From a virus, in IMG/VR virus record IMGVR_UViG_3300009326_000014, positions 1 through 22,240 of that record: DNA of 22,240 nucleotides; one strand, given 5' to 3'. This document shows, piece by piece, positions 1 through 12,569 of the stretch. Position 1 is the first letter of the stretch. The number at the start of each line of letters is the position of its first letter. Position numbers and translations under genes: made by a program. The notes below the pieces were generated by a model. That model ran no database searches. It was not told the origin of the DNA and saw only the letters and a program-made list of their open reading frames with translations.

Positions 1-1093
1 AGCTAAATTCGGCTGAGCACCGGGCAATAATCGAGCCGTTGCACTGGCCCATGTCGCCGTCGTAAATTTCGAGATCAAGGACATAGGTCTGGCAATCTTC
101 AGGTGCACACCCCGGCCAATTTTGTGCGCTGGTATCAGGCTGCACGCCACCGCAGGTGCCAACACATAGTGGATCTTCCGTCTCCTTGTTGTACACATTG
201 GCGATGTATGAGGCTTGCCCATCCACGGGCGTCCAACTAAAGCTGATCGATCCATCCTCGTTGCACTGGACCGAGAGGTCGCAGTCGTCGGAGCTGGACG
301 ACGAGGAAGTGGACGACGAGGAGGATTCGCTGGACTCGGACGACGAGGACGAGGCGGAGTCGCTGGACTCGGACGACGAGGAAGACGGGCAATCGCAGCA
401 GCCTTCGTAGCGATTTAAGGCCCAGGACGTTGTCTGCGGAACCAGGCAGTGGGCCTCGATGTTGAGGGTAATTGTCCGCGTGTAGACGGCGATTTGCCCG
501 TTGACGCACTCGATTGCCTCCTGGACGAATTGGAACGGATCGCATTCAGGCGGAGGCGGCGGAGGCGGCGGTGGATCGCTGCTGGATTCGGAGTGAGAGG
601 GCTCGGACGACGACTCGGAGGACTCGGAGGACTCGGACGACGAGTCGGAGGACGACTCGGAAGACGAGGAGGAGGAGGACGATTCTTCTTCGGGATCTTC
701 AATGAACCACCATCGCCGGCCGTACTTGCCGGCCTGCTTGTAGAGGAAGACGCGGGTGCCTTCTGGCACCCAGCCGCCCTCTTTGTTCTTGGCAATGCAG
801 TATTTGTCGGTCCAGGGATAGTAGCTGACCGCCTGCAGGCCCGGCGTTTCGGTGAAATGCCAATCCTCGAATCGCACGACGAACGTGTCGGCTTCGGAGC
901 TTTTCCGCGGGTAGACGCGATGCTTCGCGTTTGTGGTGGTGATTCCGGTCCGTAGCAAGCGCCCGGGCGAGGATTCGCGCGTGAGCTGCTGCAGGCGCGT
1001 GTTGAGGTTCTGCTGTTGGTTGTGCAGACGTCGAACCGCGTCGGCGATCGCCGACATCGATCGATCGTCGAATTGGTGCAGTTCGGTGGTCAT
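1..1093 (-). CDS. Ser/Glu-rich linker protein, probable host-contact fibre (3' end outside window)
   Basis: 364 residues are visible before the left edge; the frame is open throughout. Residues 1-40 form a coiled helix (SAIADAVRRLHNQQQNLNTR, LQQLTRE). Residues 50-135 are a compact domain with EADTFVVRFEDWHFTETPG and GTRVFLYKQAGKYGRRWWFI. A Ser/Glu/Asp tract (~138-173) and nine prolines (174-182) lead to a Cys-rich module (CDPFQF...CVNGQIAV...HCLV...GCCDCP). A second Ser tract (~237-268) leads to a fibronectin-III-like module (DGSISFSWTPVDGQASYIAN, VYNKETEDPLC) with further cysteines. Modular domains on acidic flexible linkers suit a tail-tip adhesin. The start codon and a C-rich leader come from the 108-bp repeat; no ribosome site is visible. 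Confidence 0.8.
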   Translation of the reverse strand, partial: MTTELHQFDDRSMSAIADAVRRLHNQQQNLNTRLQQLTRESSPGRLLRTGITTTNAKHRVYPRKSSEADTFVVRFEDWHFTETPGLQAVSYYPWTDKYCIAKNKEGGWVPEGTRVFLYKQAGKYGRRWWFIEDPEEESSSSSSSSESSSDSSSESSESSESSSEPSHSESSSDPPPPPPPPPECDPFQFVQEAIECVNGQIAVYTRTITLNIEAHCLVPQTTSWALNRYEGCCDCPSSSSSESSDSASSSSSESSESSSSSTSSSSSSDDCDLSVQCNEDGSISFSWTPVDGQASYIANVYNKETEDPLCVGTCGGVQPDTSAQNWPGCAPEDCQTYVLDLEIYDGDMGQCNGSIIARCSAEFS

Positions 1094-1197
1094 GGGGGGA
1101 AAGAGGTTTCAGGTGTCAGTGTTCAGGTTTCAGGTAAGAAATCGCAGGTCAGGTCTTCCTGAACACTGAAACCTGAAACCTATCGTCACACTTCGCT
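1090..1197. repeat. 108-bp palindromic repeat, copy A
   Basis: Identical to 8559-8666. Inverted arms at 1105-1127 and 1158-1180. On the minus strand it supplies the TGA of the beta-helix gene (1186-1188) at its beginning and the ATG of the Ser-rich gene (1091-1093) at its end. Confidence 0.93.
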
Positions 1198-2316: not shown

Positions 2317-3336
2317 TTACGTGAAGATTCCGGCGAATGGGGCGAGTCGCTGAAACATGACCTCTGAATAATGAACCGGGCGATACGTGAGGACCACGGG
2401 GCTACGCCCCCCTCTCTTGATCGGCTGGCCGTCGCCATCAAAAAAGACCGGATCCATGATCGGCATCTGGTCGAAATCCAGGATCCGTTGGGTCGGTGGT
2501 TCGCCCTCCAACTCGTCGGACGCCGAAATGATGCCGCCCCGCCCGTCCGGATCTCCGGCCATCGCTCGGCGATCGATCCCTCGATCGTAAATCTTGAGTA
2601 ACCAGCCTTCAGGATTGACGTCGATCCAAATCTGCAACTCCAGGTAGTCGATCGCGTTGTGCGTGCGCATCTCGACCGAAAAATCGCGGATCTTGCCTTG
2701 ATGCTTGGGGACGGTCTGCTTCAGCCCGCGGTAGTCGAACTGAACCTTCTTCTTGTTGATCACGTTGGTGACCAGGCTGTTGCAGTCGAACCACGCCAAA
2801 TTCTTCTTGACGCGAATCACCTTGCGTCCATGATCGGCTTCCGGGGCTGGGTCGAAGCGAGTCATGGCCGAGTTGAGGACCGGGCCGACCATGCCCTTCG
2901 GCCAACACTGCGCCGACATGCCGACGAAGCCGCTGATGTACTCGGCCTGTTCGACAGGCTTGGTGTATTGGACCGTGTTGACGCTGATATCCGCTCGCCA
3001 GTCCAGCGGGTTGTCGGACGGTTTGCCGTTCTCGTCTTTCTTCTCGTCGTTGTCGTCCGGGACGGCGTAGTGGAGGGTGGCGGTCCAGACGTACGTCGAG
3101 CCCAACTCGCGCGCCGGCACGATCCGCCTCAAGACGGCCAGCATTGAGACGTCGTTTGCGTACGCGTACAGATCGCCGAACATGGCGATGTTTGCGACGA
3201 CGTACGCCAGAGCTTGCTGCGCCTGGTCGTTGGGATCGTCGGTAAACAGACGCCAGACGGCCGTGTACTCAGGCTTGAAATCCTGGTAACTGCCCGTGGC
3301 GCCGTTCCAATGCAGTTGGTGCTGGTAGAAGGCCAT
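2317..3336 (-). CDS. Distal tail region protein, unrecognised family
   Basis: 339 aa, first gene after the tape measure. It begins MAFYQHQLHWNGATGSYQDF. It shows alternating beta segments (STYVWTATLHYAVPD, WRADISVNTVQYTKPVEQAE, KVQFDYRGLKQTVPKHQGKI, FSVEMRTHNAIDYLELQIWI, EGWLLKIYDRGIDRRAMAGD) and ends VVLTYRPVHYSEVMFQRLAP with FAGIFT. No membrane segment, signal peptide or catalytic motif is visible. Position suggests a distal tail or baseplate hub protein, although no Dit or Tal signature is recognised. The ribosome site is poor, because a REP element sits directly upstream. Confidence 0.7.
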   Translation of the reverse strand: MAFYQHQLHWNGATGSYQDFKPEYTAVWRLFTDDPNDQAQQALAYVVANIAMFGDLYAYANDVSMLAVLRRIVPARELGSTYVWTATLHYAVPDDNDEKKDENGKPSDNPLDWRADISVNTVQYTKPVEQAEYISGFVGMSAQCWPKGMVGPVLNSAMTRFDPAPEADHGRKVIRVKKNLAWFDCNSLVTNVINKKKVQFDYRGLKQTVPKHQGKIRDFSVEMRTHNAIDYLELQIWIDVNPEGWLLKIYDRGIDRRAMAGDPDGRGGIISASDELEGEPPTQRILDFDQMPIMDPVFFDGDGQPIKRGGRSPVVLTYRPVHYSEVMFQRLAPFAGIFT

Positions 3337-3344
3337 GGTTTGTT

Positions 3345-6333: not shown

Positions 6334-6750
6334 TCAGGTGACCGTGATATCGCTGGTCCGTTGGACTTTCACCTCGCAACGCATCGTGGCGTTTGCAGCG
6401 TATTCCTGCTCGCCCACGGCTTTGACCTTGCAGTCGAATTCCTTCGTGATGGGCGTGGAATGCGGCGTCACAAGTTGAACCGAAACCTCATCTCCGCTTT
6501 CGAACAGCGTGGTCCACTTCTCGTGTTCCGTGTCATCTTCCTTGTAGTGCAGCAGGATGGTCATTTCGGACGCCTGCTCGACGCCGAGAATCGGCACCTC
6601 GAAATCGTCGCCCAGCTCGCGGCCCTCGACTTCTTCGCGCGAGCGTTGCGGTGGGGTGGCGGTGATGACGCCTGGGACAACATCGAAGGCTGCACCGTCG
6701 TCGTCCAGTTTGATGACGGAGCCGAGAGCGATTTGTTTGTAGGTGGTCAT
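6334..6750 (-). CDS. Major tail (tube) protein
   Basis: 138 aa from the ATG at 6750 (MTTYKQIALGSVIKLDDDGA). The sequence is beta-rich with TPPQRSREEVEGRELGDDFE, VPILGVEQASEMTILLHYKE, DDTEHEKWTTLFESGDEVSV, EFDCKVKAVGEQEYAANATM and a closing strand, the design of siphophage tail-tube proteins ('...p.r..ie...l.d......pGi...g.i...l.y......y..l'). It polymerises around the tape measure to make the tail tube. Position between the tail terminator group and the tail chaperones agrees. An in-frame start at 6801 exists but lies inside the palindromic leader. The ribosome site is weak. Confidence 0.82.
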   Translation of the reverse strand: MTTYKQIALGSVIKLDDDGAAFDVVPGVITATPPQRSREEVEGRELGDDFEVPILGVEQASEMTILLHYKEDDTEHEKWTTLFESGDEVSVQLVTPHSTPITKEFDCKVKAVGEQEYAANATMRCEVKVQRTSDITVT

Positions 6751-6766
6751 GGAGAGCTCGCTGTCT

Positions 6767-6826
6767 GTAGGACCGGTCTGGAGACCCGTCGCTTTTTGCA
6801 CAGACGGGCCTGGAGACCCGTCCTAC
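6767..6826. repeat. Palindromic repeat in the major tail gene leader
   Basis: GTAGGACCGGTCTGGAGACC... and ...GGCCTGGAGACCCGTCCTAC form imperfect inverted arms around GCTTTTTGCACA. The minus strand carries GACGGGTCTCCAG twice. It ends 17 nt before the major tail protein ATG, so the transcript leader should fold into a stable hairpin. Confidence 0.7.
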
Positions 6827-6887: not shown

Positions 6888-7664
6888 CTAGATTGCCAAA
6901 ACGGGGTCTTCTTCGCCGCTGGGGTCAACCACATCGATCAAAGCGTAGGCCCCATAATTGCGGATGGACGAGGCGATCGAGTTCCAGGAATCGATCCCGA
7001 ACCCGCCCCCGTTCCACGCTTCGTCCCAAGAGTTCAGATACAACACGCGGTCGCCTTCGAGCCACTCAAGTGCACAGATCGCATGCCCACGCCGGCCATA
7101 GCAGATCGGCCGCGTGCGAAACAGCGAGGTCGCGAATTCCAGCTTGGACCCGATGTCCAGCCACCGCAACGAACGATAGTTTCGGCTGATGTCCTGATGG
7201 CCGGCCGGCAAGGGCGTCCAGAGCCCCTTGGACCGCGGCCAGTAATCCTGGGGCAAGATCCCCACGGATTGCGATCGGCGTACGTTGTCTCCGATGTTCG
7301 AACCGCGATCGCGCCCACCGCTGGTGAATTGGTACACCGTCCACGGATTCAGCTTGATCCGCTGCAGGCCCGCCAGCTCGCGAACGACCGTAATCGCGCC
7401 GGTGACGCACTCGGCGGCGCACGAGCCGTGCCCGTTTTGGTCGAGTACGTCCCACACCCTTTCGGCCAGGTCCGACCGCCCGTAGTACTTGTGCCATTCG
7501 CTTTCCGGGATGACCGGCAACTGGTCCCGGTACCGGGCCACGCCGGCCAGTTGTCCACACGGTTCACTGCGAGGCAAGCAGCCGGCGGCTTTGCCGCGTG
7601 GCACTCGCAGCGGAGTGGTGCGGCGCTGGCCTCGCAACAGTTTGATTCTCGCTCGTCGTATCAC
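6888..7664 (-). CDS. Papain-like (C1-type) cysteine peptidase
   Basis: 258 aa from a GTG (GTGA overlap with the previous stop). Papain-family residues are present in order: oxyanion Gln and catalytic Cys in DQNGHGSCAAECVTGA (Q76, C82), catalytic His in CYGRRGHAICALEWLEGD (H194), and the supporting Asn in LYLNSWDEAWNGGGFGI (N211). It should be an active endopeptidase. There is no propeptide and no clear signal sequence; the N-terminus is basic (MIRRARIKLLRGQRR). It lies among tail genes, next to the secreted thioredoxin-fold protein. It is unlikely to be the capsid protease because an S78 protease is present. Digestion of a proteinaceous host surface or virion processing are possible roles. 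Confidence 0.85.
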   Translation of the reverse strand: MIRRARIKLLRGQRRTTPLRVPRGKAAGCLPRSEPCGQLAGVARYRDQLPVIPESEWHKYYGRSDLAERVWDVLDQNGHGSCAAECVTGAITVVRELAGLQRIKLNPWTVYQFTSGGRDRGSNIGDNVRRSQSVGILPQDYWPRSKGLWTPLPAGHQDISRNYRSLRWLDIGSKLEFATSLFRTRPICYGRRGHAICALEWLEGDRVLYLNSWDEAWNGGGFGIDSWNSIASSIRNYGAYALIDVVDPSGEEDPVLAI

Positions 7665-8341
7665 CGGTGGTGCTCCAAGATCTCAATCACGTCATCGGCC
7701 GTCGCCGGCAGACCGCCGGCGTACAGGACTTGGCCGGACTCACTGATCACCAGCAGGACAGGCAGCGGAATGTTGTGCTCCGCCAGGTATCCCAAGAACT
7801 TCACCATGGCCGGTACCGGCTGGTCGTGTTCGTCCTTGACGGATCGATCCTTGAACCAGCGGCGGATCTTGTGTTGGTCCAGATAGTCGGCCAGTTTCGC
7901 GCTGCTGATGACAAGGGCCTGGTCGGCAGTCCGCCGGGTCCGATCCTCGATCACAATGCACCACGCCGCCGGCTCCGTTGGATCCGGCGGCGGGGGAGGA
8001 GGGGGCGGTGAATTGCCTCCCAGTTGGACGCGTTCGGCCGCGATTGACTGTTTGACGTCGTGTGGGATGAACACCACCGTAAACACGTCGCCGAGGTCGC
8101 CTTGCCAGGCAAGGATCGATCCTCCGGACTTGAGCAGCGATGCCCGGCCCGGATAGGGCGCGCCGTCCTGCAGGACAAGCCAGCGGCCTTCGACCGTGGT
8201 GCGCACGCAGGCCGCGGCCTTGCCTTCGGTCGGCAAGACCGATAGTTCCACCGTCGCCAGGTTCTGCGCTGTCACGGTGCTGACAACTGTCAACAGCGCG
8301 ATCACACAAGCCCGACGCGCCAGCGAGGGTAAGGTTCTCAT
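7661..8341 (-). CDS. Secreted thioredoxin-fold protein without CxxC
   Basis: 226 aa. Residues 1-25 form a Sec signal peptide (RR, then ACVIALLTVVSTVTA, cleavage expected after VTA). A ~85-residue beta-rich domain follows (WLVLQDGAPYPGRASLLKSG, DVFTVVFIPHDVKQSIAAER), then a run of eight prolines (112-119). The C-terminal ~100 residues look like a thioredoxin fold (AAWCIVIEDRTRRTADQALV, KLADYLDQHKIRRWFKD, VPAMVKFLGYLAEHNIPLPV, LLVISESGQVLYAGGLPATA), including the cis-Pro-like 'LPV' region. No CxxC is present, so it cannot be a dithiol oxidoreductase. It overlaps the cysteine peptidase gene by 4 nt, implying a joint task outside the cytoplasm. Confidence 0.75.
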   Translation of the reverse strand: MRTLPSLARRACVIALLTVVSTVTAQNLATVELSVLPTEGKAAACVRTTVEGRWLVLQDGAPYPGRASLLKSGGSILAWQGDLGDVFTVVFIPHDVKQSIAAERVQLGGNSPPPPPPPPDPTEPAAWCIVIEDRTRRTADQALVISSAKLADYLDQHKIRRWFKDRSVKDEHDQPVPAMVKFLGYLAEHNIPLPVLLVISESGQVLYAGGLPATADDVIEILEHHR

Positions 8342-8547
8342 TGCGGTGTGATCGTCCCGTCGTCAATTTGAGTATCGGGCTTCCGGATCTCGGCCAAGAT
8401 CTTCACGGTCAGCGCGATAATCTCCGGCAAGTACTTGAGCAACACCGCCAAGAACGGACCGATACTCGCCGGCTCGACGTCGATCTTGCCCAGCGGCTGA
8501 GGTTCGGCGCCCGCCGCCAGTGGGGCGGATAGTGTGATGCGAAACAT
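8338..8547 (-). CDS. Small single-helix membrane protein
   Basis: 69 aa from the ATG at 8547, chosen because AAAGGAAA lies 5 nt upstream. An upstream ATG at 8562 belongs to the repeat and has no ribosome site. The N-terminal part is polar (MFRITLSAPLAAGAEPQPLG). Residues ~27-48 form a hydrophobic helix (ASIGPFLAVLLKYLPEIIAL, then TVKILAEI) and the tail is acidic. No family is recognised. Its stop overlaps the start of the secreted thioredoxin-like protein (8338-8341), so these two are probably translated together; a holin or anchoring role is only a guess. Confidence 0.65.
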   Translation of the reverse strand: MFRITLSAPLAAGAEPQPLGKIDVEPASIGPFLAVLLKYLPEIIALTVKILAEIRKPDTQIDDGTITPQ

Positions 8548-8558
8548 CAGGTTTCCTT

Positions 8559-8666
8559 TCATGGGGGGAAAGAGGTTTCAGGTGTCAGTGTTCAGGTTTC
8601 AGGTAAGAAATCGCAGGTCAGGTCTTCCTGAACACTGAAACCTGAAACCTATCGTCACACTTCGCT
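8559..8666. repeat. 108-bp palindromic repeat, copy B
   Basis: Identical over 108 bp to 1090-1197. It contains a 23-nt inverted repeat with one mismatch (8574-8596 and 8627-8649) around a 30-nt loop, made of TTTCAGG/TCAGTGTTCAGG units. On the minus strand it begins AGCGAAGTGTGACGATAGG and ends CCCCCCATGA. Here it is read into by the upstream 48-aa ORF and reaches to just before the next gene. Confidence 0.93.
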
Positions 8667-8764
8667 TCGACCAGGCCGGTCACGTAGGCGCCGACTACGT
8701 CTAACGCCAGAACCGCGCGCACACTGCCAGGTGGAAGCCAAAGCGGTTCGTGTTGGTCCCGCAT
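8618..8764 (-). CDS. Small hydrophobic peptide, 3' end replaced by a repeat
   Basis: 48 aa starting at the ATG that overlaps the tail-terminator stop (TGATG). The peptide starts MRDQHEPLWLPPGSVRAVLA and continues LDVVGAYVTGLVEAK. The 'LPPGSVRA.LAL' box followed by a hydrophobic stretch is a pattern I recall from small membrane peptides of phages in related bacteria. From about residue 33 the codons belong to the 108-bp repeat (8559-8666), which contributes the last 15 or so residues and the stop. The original C-terminus seems to have been replaced. It is too short for routine gene callers; function unknown, perhaps holin-like. Confidence 0.55.
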   Translation of the reverse strand: MRDQHEPLWLPPGSVRAVLALDVVGAYVTGLVEAKCDDRFQVSVFRKT

Positions 8765-9189
8765 CACGATCCCTCCTCGTATCCCACGATTTCCAATTGC
8801 AGGGCGGCCACGTGAAAGCCTTCGTCGTCGTCGAAAATGCCGCGGGGCAAATAGTCGTCGGCGTGGTCTCGGACAAACAGGGCCTGGACGGTGCCGTCGC
8901 CAAACGTGCCGCGGGCCTTGCTGTGCGATCGGAGCTCGTCGGCCGCGTCCAGCACCGCGTCGAGATCTCGCCCGATCACCTCGACGTCGAAGAACTCGCG
9001 AAACGGAGCCGTACCTTCCTCGTCGTCGAGCTCGTCTTCGTCGTCGGTTCCGCCCCGCGAGTACCAGATGTACAGCCCGTCGTAGCTTTCCGGTGTCTTG
9101 TTCTGGTGCATCCGCTCGGCGCCCACGGCGTCGGAGATGTCCGAGTCGTCGAGCAGGTAGGATCGAAGGTCGATTCCGAGGCTTGACAT
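8764..9189 (-). CDS. Tail completion/terminator protein, DUF3168-like
   Basis: 141 aa. It begins with SSLGIDLRSYLLDDSDISDAVG, then RMHQNKTPESYDGLYIWYSR, the usual '...R.YP...PQ...PYV.Y...' part of DUF3168 tail terminators. Next come FREFFDVEVIGRDLDAVLDA, ADELRSHSKA and a closing strand HVAALQLEIVGYEEGS. An acidic insert (GGTDDEDELDDEEGTA) is unusual. The protein caps the tail tube and docks the tail to the neck. Position after the gp10-like gene agrees with HK97 order. Its TGA overlaps the next ATG by one base. Confidence 0.85.
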   Translation of the reverse strand: MSSLGIDLRSYLLDDSDISDAVGAERMHQNKTPESYDGLYIWYSRGGTDDEDELDDEEGTAPFREFFDVEVIGRDLDAVLDAADELRSHSKARGTFGDGTVQALFVRDHADDYLPRGIFDDDEGFHVAALQLEIVGYEEGS

Positions 9190-9785: not shown

Positions 9786-11009
9786 TCAGTCTAACCAGGC
9801 CAGTTTGGGCCGCCGCCGGTACGCCTTCGGCTTCGCGTCGGTAAAGGTTGGCGGCGGGCTTTCCAGCAGTACGATTCCCGCGTCCTTGGCCTGCTGTTGT
9901 CGCCGCTCCCACGCCGTCTGCGCTTGCTTGGCGCGCCGTCTGGCTTCCCGCCAGCGTGCAATAGCCTGGAGGCTTCTTTGCTCATGGGTCCGCTCGTTCT
10001 CGTCCCACGACTGCACGGTCATGAACCCGCGATCGTCCGCGGCGAGCCCATGGCGCGCGTTGTACCGGTCGAAAGTCTCGATCAAGGTGATCGGCTGCCG
10101 CTCCGTGGTGAGAGGCGATTCGAGCAATCGGTTCCGCCGCGTTTCATTGGTCCAGCGCAGCTTGCCGGCGTAGACGTTGATTTCCAAAACCACCCGATCC
10201 GGCATGCCGTCGGCGTAATCGATCAAAGCGTCCGGAGCGTTTGCCGAGTGCGGCGAGATCAGCGTGACGTTGCCGTTCTCGTCGAAGGCGTACAACTCGC
10301 CGCTCTTGTTGACCAGGCCGGCGTGATCGGCCGGCACGCCGGTCGGATCGCTGCCGGCGTCGGCCAAGACGAACACCGGGGTGCCGCCGCCGCTGGGTAC
10401 CGACGTCGTACCCAGGCAGACGTTGCCGCCAAAATACGCCTTGGCATCGGTGCCCAAAGTGAACGCTTCGAGCTGGCTCAACCCCGACGTGATCGTATCG
10501 AAGCGGATTTGAGCTCCGGCGACCAGGCCTGCCGCAAAAAGCGCGGAGCCCACCGGTAAAGAAGCCCCGCCGCCTGAAAATTCGTTGCCGGCGATCTGTA
10601 GTAGCGCGCCTCGGCTGGCTGCCAGTCCCCCGGCGCCGGTAAGCAGCACCCGTTTATTGTCCGTTCCATCCGACGTATCTGTCTTCAGCGCCGTGTCTGG
10701 ATCGGTTCCCTTCAGCGTGACCACGCTACTAGCTGCGAGCGTTGTAAAGTCTCCGGCCGCCGGTGTCGTCCCGCCAATCGCCCCCGGCGCCGCAAGTCGG
10801 GCTGTCAGATTGGCCGGCGTGATTGCTCGCGCCGTATCCGTCCCAGTCACCGCCTCGGCTTCGGTCGCCAATTCGACCAGGCCGTCGGCGACGGTGGTGG
10901 CAGCGTCGAAGCGCGACTGCATTTCGTCGGCAAAATCGTCGAGCGACTCGATTTCCGTTGGGTCGACCGTGGGGCCGACGCCGATGCCTACGTAAAAGAC
11001 GGCGCTCAT
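9786..11009 (-). CDS. Fibre-like structural protein in the connector region
   Basis: 407 aa. Near the N-terminus (residues ~35-90) is the classic fibre motif VELATEAEAVTGTDTARAIT, PANLTARLAAPGAIGGTTPA and AGDFTTLAAS, found in many phage tail-fibre shafts. The centre is Gly/Ala-rich beta sequence, including GNVCLGTTSVPSGGGTPVFV, LADAGSDPTGVPADHAGLVN and KSGELYAFDENGNVTLISPH, the junction that usually precedes a trimeric tip. The C-terminal ~150 residues are helical and basic (QAIARWREARRRAKQAQTAW) and end in AYRRRPKLAWLD, resembling the 'H...LHKRTREEQIAALEARL' endings of such fibres. It lies between connector and tail-completion genes rather than after the tape measure, so it may be a head or neck fibre. 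Confidence 0.75.
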   Translation of the reverse strand: MSAVFYVGIGVGPTVDPTEIESLDDFADEMQSRFDAATTVADGLVELATEAEAVTGTDTARAITPANLTARLAAPGAIGGTTPAAGDFTTLAASSVVTLKGTDPDTALKTDTSDGTDNKRVLLTGAGGLAASRGALLQIAGNEFSGGGASLPVGSALFAAGLVAGAQIRFDTITSGLSQLEAFTLGTDAKAYFGGNVCLGTTSVPSGGGTPVFVLADAGSDPTGVPADHAGLVNKSGELYAFDENGNVTLISPHSANAPDALIDYADGMPDRVVLEINVYAGKLRWTNETRRNRLLESPLTTERQPITLIETFDRYNARHGLAADDRGFMTVQSWDENERTHEQRSLQAIARWREARRRAKQAQTAWERRQQQAKDAGIVLLESPPPTFTDAKPKAYRRRPKLAWLD

Positions 11010-11012
11010 GGG

Positions 11013-11315
11013 CTATTTCTCCAACGTGATCGAAAGCGTCACATCCGAGCTGCCGGCCCGGATGAACTGCAGGGCGTTGATATTCGCGTTGCCGTTGACG
11101 ACCAGCGTTCCGCCTACGTCGACTTTGTGGCCTAGCGTCGCCGTCGGCGTCTCGCCGCTCCAGCACGCGACTACGGCGTCCGAAAATGGCGAGATGTAGG
11201 CGCGGCGGGCGTCTGCCAGGTCGCTGGCTCCCCAAGAGAAATCAGCGTGCGAAATGGCCTTGGCCGTGCTGCTGACCGTGGCGGACTTGGTGGCGTAGGC
11301 TTTGGTCGTATTCAT
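11013..11315 (-). CDS. Small beta-rich phage structural protein
   Basis: 100 aa; GAGG lies 8 nt before the ATG. The sequence is mostly beta: ATVSSTAKAISHADFSWGAS, ARRAYISPFSDAVVACWSGE, TPTATLGHKVDVGGTLVVNG, INALQFIRAGSSDVTLSITL. The pattern 'A.I....A.V.....G..PTA..G......GTL.V.G...I..L.FIR.G..D.TL..T' is familiar from short phage proteins encoded near head-tail genes. Their function is not established; a minor virion component is likely. It is directly followed by the fibre-like gene, with RBS GGAG formed by its last codons. Confidence 0.72.
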   Translation of the reverse strand: MNTTKAYATKSATVSSTAKAISHADFSWGASDLADARRAYISPFSDAVVACWSGETPTATLGHKVDVGGTLVVNGNANINALQFIRAGSSDVTLSITLEK

Positions 11316-12261: not shown

Positions 12262-12310
12262 GTAGTACCGCCTTGAGGCGGAAGAGCCGGCTGAAGCCGG
12301 TACTACGAAC
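12262..12310. repeat. REP-like double hairpin, copy 2
   Basis: GTAGTACC...GGTACTAC ends enclose CCGCCTTGAGGCGG and CCGGCTGAAGCCGG hairpins. It fills the gap between the 88-aa membrane protein and the gp6-like connector gene and provides the TAG stop of the former. Confidence 0.85.
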
Positions 12311-12569
12311 TTTCTTCTGGCACTTCCGCGGCGGTCCAGCCGGGATTGAGCTTTTCCGTGTCGATGACCCACCGCCGCATGTCGCCGCGTCGCCATCGAT
12401 CGTCGACTTGGCCGACCAGCTCCGTGAGCTGGCCGCGGATCTCGCGCAGATCTCGGCTGACGTTGGTAGCCCACGTGGCCGCGGTCCAGACCAAGCCAAC
12501 GCAAGAAACAACCACGGCGATCGCCGTGGTGATTCGAACGGCGGAACTTTCGAACAACTGACGGACCAT
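12303..12569 (-). CDS. Single-pass membrane protein with cytoplasmic-type coiled tail
   Basis: 88 aa from the ATG at 12569. Residues ~10-33 form one hydrophobic helix (AVRITTAIAVVVSCVGLVWT and AATWA). A charged amphipathic helix with heptad-like spacing follows (VSRDLREIRGQLTELVGQVD, DRWRRGD), then a Trp-containing C-terminus (NPGWTAAEVPEESS). This plan is shared by small phage lysis-accessory proteins and by haemolysin XhlA-like peptides, but no diagnostic motif is present. The last Ser and the stop (TTCGTAG) come from a REP palindrome. Its location inside the connector genes is unusual for a membrane protein. Confidence 0.65.
   Translation of the reverse strand: MVRQLFESSAVRITTAIAVVVSCVGLVWTAATWATNVSRDLREIRGQLTELVGQVDDRWRRGDMRRWVIDTEKLNPGWTAAEVPEESS

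Follow-up and report, generated by a model that had tools for sequence, protein, structure and literature searches.

A three-gene cassette between two tail genes

Are the three overlapping genes between the tail terminator and the major tail protein of this phage a part of its tail, or an independent unit, and what would such a unit do where no peptidoglycan hydrolase is visible? The window analysed here is the whole IMG/VR record IMGVR_UViG_3300009326_000014, a linear fragment of 22,240 bp, in which all late genes lie on the minus strand. The head part runs terS, terL, portal, S78 protease, HK97-type capsid, connector, head completion protein and gp10, followed by TT, the cassette of MEM, TRX and PEP, MTP, chaperones, tape measure and ORF_C/B/A. 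TT (8764..9189, minus strand) is a tail-terminator-like gene with homologues in syntenic relatives, named from its position, and MTP (6334..6801, minus strand) encodes the major tail protein (PHROG 158, E 4.5e-9). The three overlapping genes that the original prediction had placed at 6888-8547 were all confirmed as ORFs on the minus strand. The MEM/TRX and TRX/PEP overlaps are 4 bp each, the codon-position GC of the cassette ORFs (high GC3, low GC2) is that of the structural genes, and none of the three products has an above-cut-off match in Pfam, PHROGs or NCBIfam.

The TT-MTP interval measures 1,962 bp in the window and 4.5 kb in a close relative (G003); TT abuts MTP (gap <=42 bp) in 11 relatives, a count that covers those in which both genes were found and includes some near-duplicates. 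Because the cassette is missing from the slot in these 11 relatives and lies elsewhere in other carriers, it does not belong to the tail module: the predicted location between TT and MTP stood, the membership did not. In these relatives the cassette is likewise not conserved in the tail operon, as a structural component of the virion or tail would be. Judged by gene order, the comparison shows an insertion into the late operon.

The papain-like peptidase and its exported partner

PEP (6888..7664, minus strand) is a putative C1A papain-like cysteine peptidase of 258 aa; its GTG start and the stop of TRX share 4 bp. The catalytic residues Q76 (7437..7439), C82 (7419..7421), H194 (7083..7085) and N211 (7032..7034; all minus strand) are present in that order, in agreement with the predicted intact Q-C-H-N set; C82, H194 and the NSW motif at N211 are invariant in alignment A8. 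With its C1A catalytic residues intact, PEP looks active. By itself the window sequence gave no significant family or structure match, and as a direct query it found no match in genome and viral contigs; a plasmid search returned weak rhizobial C1 peptidase matches alone (21% identity). A profile built from the window and L111 sequences (alignment A4) matched the bacterial cysteine protease 3ois (E 7.7e-6) and cathepsin B (E 6e-5) in the PDB. The AF2 model (pLDDT 35) was unusable for the fold. PEP shares with family C1A (papain, cathepsin B, 3ois) the Q-C-H-N set, the GSC motif and the NSW motif, and its homologues in L111 and LR756511 match Pfam Peptidase_C1 just below the cut-off. It differs from C1A in being very divergent, under all family thresholds, without a signal peptide and phage-encoded with an exported thioredoxin-fold partner. 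Neither a signal peptide nor a hydrophobic N-terminus was seen in a hydrophobicity scan of PEP.

TRX (7661..8341, minus strand; 226 aa, ATG start) comprises a Sec signal peptide, an N-terminal beta region, a Pro-rich linker and a C-terminal thioredoxin fold. The fold was assigned to residues 122-226 (7664..7978, minus strand), a block of the AF2 model with pLDDT 57-92 that matched thioredoxins in Foldseek with probability 1.00, E about 2e-3 and a TM-score of about 0.5-0.6 on the target, while the N-terminal 121 residues were modelled at low confidence. Searched against a structure library of viral proteins, TRX matched uncharacterised proteins from uncultured Caudovirales phages, the best at E 1.3e-7. 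No CxxC motif occurs in TRX of the window or, in the alignment, in its L111, L134 and L146 homologues. The modelled protein thus fits the predicted Sec-exported two-domain protein with a CxxC-less thioredoxin fold, and the missing CxxC disfavours a redox role, which we set aside. In every carrier TRX is marked for export or anchoring, by a signal peptide or a TM segment, and PEP lacks such a signal, so the two proteins, originally cast as peptidase and partner or inhibitor, would start in different compartments.

The putative membrane protein and the repeated leader

MEM (8338..8562, minus strand) encodes 69-74 aa with one hydrophobic helix (LAVLLKYLPEIIALTVKIL). The first ATG gives 74 aa; the likely start is the ATG at 8547 (69 aa), preceded by a Shine-Dalgarno-like AAAGGA and in agreement with the start given originally. 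The hydrophobic stretch of MEM is marginal (KD19 1.76), and a membrane peptide is plausible. The L111 and L134 counterparts have two clear hydrophobic segments each; that of LR756511 falls under the cut. A second small gene beside x106 (12303..12569, minus strand; 88 aa, one TM segment and a coiled coil) is a candidate holin-like gene, with positional counterparts at L111:1386-1661 and L109:8730-9065.

Upstream of MEM lies a 108-nt leader (8559..8666, minus strand) with a strong hairpin of 24-nt arms (8573-8596 / 8627-8650; RNA folding z = -5.4). A second copy, 100% identical and in direct repeat, stands upstream of ORF_A (1090..1197, minus strand), and the repeat is possibly a trace of how the cassette was joined.

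Recurrence of the pair in other phages

Relatives were collected through searches with the capsid protein (MCP), gp10, terminase, tape measure and ORF_C, and not through PEP. Four phages carry TRX and PEP in the same gene order: the window, L111, G019 and LR756511. The pair stands between TT and MTP in the window, between x106 and the connector in L111, upstream of terminase in G019, and at a site of its own in LR756511; in each case it adjoins a hydrophobic or membrane protein, and in 3/4 carriers TRX and PEP overlap by 4 bp. In L111, TRX (2085-2540) and PEP (2583-3311) follow two membrane proteins, and their homology to the window proteins is supported by E 3e-14 for PEP and 2e-5 for TRX. 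The G019 (L134) genes for a protein with two TM segments, a TM-anchored TRX and PEP are joined by two 4-bp overlaps and located upstream of tail-fibre-like and terminase genes. In LR756511 (L146), a huge phage of 595 kb, the exported TRX has two domains and overlaps PEP by 4 bp, and a MEM-like protein with hydrophobic repeats is also encoded. Profile comparisons gave E 1e-7 (LR756511) and 2e-5 (G019) for PEP, and E 1e-5 (LR756511) and 0.06 (G019) for TRX, the assignment of the G019 TRX resting also on gene order and overlap.

Since the homologues stand together and in order in L111, and also in G019 and LR756511, the pair is more than chance, and its presence in four different genome contexts marks it as a genuine unit. 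By sequence comparison, the exported thioredoxin-fold protein and the papain-like protein are a real, conserved and previously unnamed mobile unit. The recurrence of this pair at other genome positions in three further phages is new here. The proposed co-occurrence of all three genes was borne out for TRX and PEP, with the third present only as an adjoining hydrophobic or membrane protein; the membrane proteins of the four carriers are counterparts by position.

Other proteases in the relatives

The close relative G003 has, in the same TT-MTP slot, a trypsin-like protease with a lipoprotein signal and collagen-like GPP repeats (L109:13012-14436, plus strand; Trypsin_2 E 1.1e-13) together with a membrane protein; this protease is non-homologous to the window cassette. 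G018 encodes a trypsin-like S1 protease with a C-terminal TM segment, G014 an M10 matrixin (E 8.4e-15), and G004 an exported thioredoxin that overlaps an exported papain-like protein, followed by a TM plus coiled-coil protein (L136:6482-7425(-)). The papain-like call in G004 was made by eye on a possible Cys-His pair, with no Pfam match, and among the exported thioredoxin proteins a CxxC (CGVC) is found in G004 only. In G018, G014 and G004 the protease genes lie upstream of terminase, which in lambda-type phages is the region of the lysis genes. The available sequence of most relatives contains no protease gene. Similar pairs of secreted proteins with CxxCH (cytochrome c-like) motifs follow the matrixin in G014 (L141:8355-10714(-)) and TRX-PEP-MEM in LR756511 (L146:5109-7685(+)).

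Search for a conventional endolysin

The original remark that no peptidoglycan hydrolase is visible held for the window, and no common one was found in the phage-sized relatives; the huge phage LR756511 has one M23 peptidase domain. Among the matches listed when 198 ORFs of relatives were scanned with Pfam there was no peptidoglycan hydrolase family, and six-frame searches for Amidase_2, SLT, Phage_lysozyme, M15_4 and M23 found none in 22 contigs. As a control, the same ORF pipeline recovered Amidase_2, PG_binding_1 and holins from unrelated phage loci. Amidase_2 occurred in 0/22 relatives and 4/22 unrelated contigs, a difference that is not significant (Fisher p = 0.11). Most contigs are fragments, and a lysin could be encoded beyond the available sequence, none of the genomes being demonstrably complete; with the p value for Amidase_2, this makes the absence of an endolysin suggestive only. 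From the window by itself, a linear fragment of 22 kb, a negative says little. As for the peptidoglycan-degrading enzyme of a holin-endolysin cassette, PEP instead resembles protein peptidases, and the window has no hydrolase family.

A proposed delivery of a protease to the envelope

We propose that MEM-TRX-PEP is a mobile, translationally coupled late cassette by which a protease reaches the host envelope, most likely to serve as the phage's exit system or a part of it, a reading to which we give a probability of roughly 45%. According to this hypothetical scheme, (i) PEP would build up in the cytoplasm, as canonical endolysins do; (ii) membrane failure would free PEP, the holin being MEM and/or the separate TM-plus-coiled-coil protein; (iii) in the periplasm PEP would meet TRX, which may guide, hold or activate it; (iv) PEP would cut envelope proteins or activate host autolysins, and the cell would open. 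The expression timing, the holin role, the substrate and the function of TRX are the parts of this scheme that we infer. Relatives without the C1A pair may use another enzyme in its place: a matrixin, a trypsin-like protease capable of export, or an exported thioredoxin paired with a papain-like protein.

In favour of exit, the signal peptide or TM segment on TRX and its absence from PEP in all carriers follow an endolysin-like compartment logic; other proteases occupy the TT-MTP slot (G003, non-homologous) or stand upstream of terminase (G018, G014, G004); and no common peptidoglycan hydrolase was found in phage-sized contigs. Against it count the M23 domain in LR756511, the weak hydrophobicity of MEM and the absence of proteases from the available stretch of most relatives. 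A protein-cutting protease alone would also not lyse a host with ordinary peptidoglycan unless host autolysins took part. The planctomycete host behind the original proposal is hypothetical, and since cultured planctomycetes do have peptidoglycan (PMC4432640), a protein-only host wall is not to be assumed. We consider it rather doubtful that an uncultured phage lineage has swapped its endolysin for interchangeable envelope proteases (C1A with an exported thioredoxin-fold partner, S1 and M10), and equally doubtful, as part of that same reading, that the MEM/Trx/protease cassette is one version of such a protease-based lysis system.

The closest rival to exit is cargo (a moron), a lysogenic-conversion or fitness module supplying an envelope-acting or secreted protease and its exported partner with no relation to release. 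It would account for an accessory insertion behind a repeat-borne leader, for proteases of several unrelated clans in relatives, for the protease beside CxxCH cytochrome-like secreted proteins in LR756511 and G014, and for the precedent of a Bacteroides siphophage-like prophage in which a C10 papain-fold protease occurs next to the phage's amidase and holin (PMC2873492). We nevertheless regard it as somewhat unlikely, since the C1A peptidases themselves lack an export signal, the cassette genes are co-directional within late operons, and no separate lysin was found in phage-sized contigs.

That PEP and TRX are instead carried on the virion or its tail and breach the next host's surface would agree with the cassette's place among the tail genes of the window and with the signal-less PEP; such a role in entry is improbable, however, because the position is not conserved (the head module in one carrier, upstream of terminase in another), close relatives make tails without the cassette, and virion proteins do not usually have a Sec signal such as that of TRX. 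Envelope takeover or superinfection exclusion, in which TRX and a little PEP modify host receptors or secretion with no part in exit, draws on the exported thioredoxin-fold and heme-motif proteins near the LR756511 cassette, which suggest envelope reprogramming, but it leaves the signal-less peptidase unexplained, has no direct support and is very improbable. Of the undescribed exit or entry system originally proposed, the gene unit and its intact peptidase residues are supported; its placement in the tail module is not.

Relation to known systems and significance

The exit reading likens the cassette to a canonical holin-endolysin(-spanin) module in its small putative membrane protein, signal-less lytic-type enzyme, exported envelope partner and overlapping late genes, and the protease genes upstream of terminase in several relatives add to the likeness to canonical lysis cassettes. 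Unlike those modules, the enzyme is a putative protein peptidase and the exported partner has a predicted thioredoxin fold. The closest functional precedent is PeiP/PeiW (C71), papain-superfamily lysins of methanogen viruses that act on a non-standard wall and lyse pseudomurein-walled archaea (PMC4592898, PMC2989375). PeiP/PeiW and PEP belong to different families, and the substrate is established for PeiP/PeiW alone. We know of no thioredoxin-fold partner of PeiP/PeiW. The G018 S1 protease, which is not in the window, resembles the NCBIfam model of the periplasmic serine protease MarP (E 2.5e-12), though well short of the equivalog cut-off; MarP is an activator of a cell-wall hydrolase. As in the window, a papain-fold protease is found in a siphophage-like genome in the Bacteroides prophage Bfgi2 (C10 protease Bfp3), which differs in having its own amidase and holin and a different peptidase family (PMC2873492).

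Phage exit from hosts with unusual envelopes has been little studied. In a phage group that yielded other proteases and no common endolysin, the cassette is a candidate on which protease-based lysis can be tested directly, and a new place to look for enzymes that act on envelopes.

Further features of the window and its relatives

Between the head completion protein gene and gp10, positions 9786-11315 of the window hold a fibre-like ORF (407 aa) and a 100-aa ORF; the flanking genes of this insert are directly adjacent in L109, L110, L112 and L119. REP-like palindromic elements (GTAGTACCGGCTTCAGCCGGCT) are dispersed in intergenic positions at 3337, 12262, 13682 and 16102 of the window. In the terS-terL interval of a relative, an ORF (L034:465-1958(+)) combines, by eye, a ParB-like N-terminus with a D12-type DNA methyltransferase-like part. 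ORF_A (window 2-1093) has a Ser-rich acidic low-complexity tail, similar in style to those in L109, L110 and other relatives, and glycosyltransferase-like genes lie 3' of ORF_A at L110:9256-12160(+) and L019:6922-9724(-).
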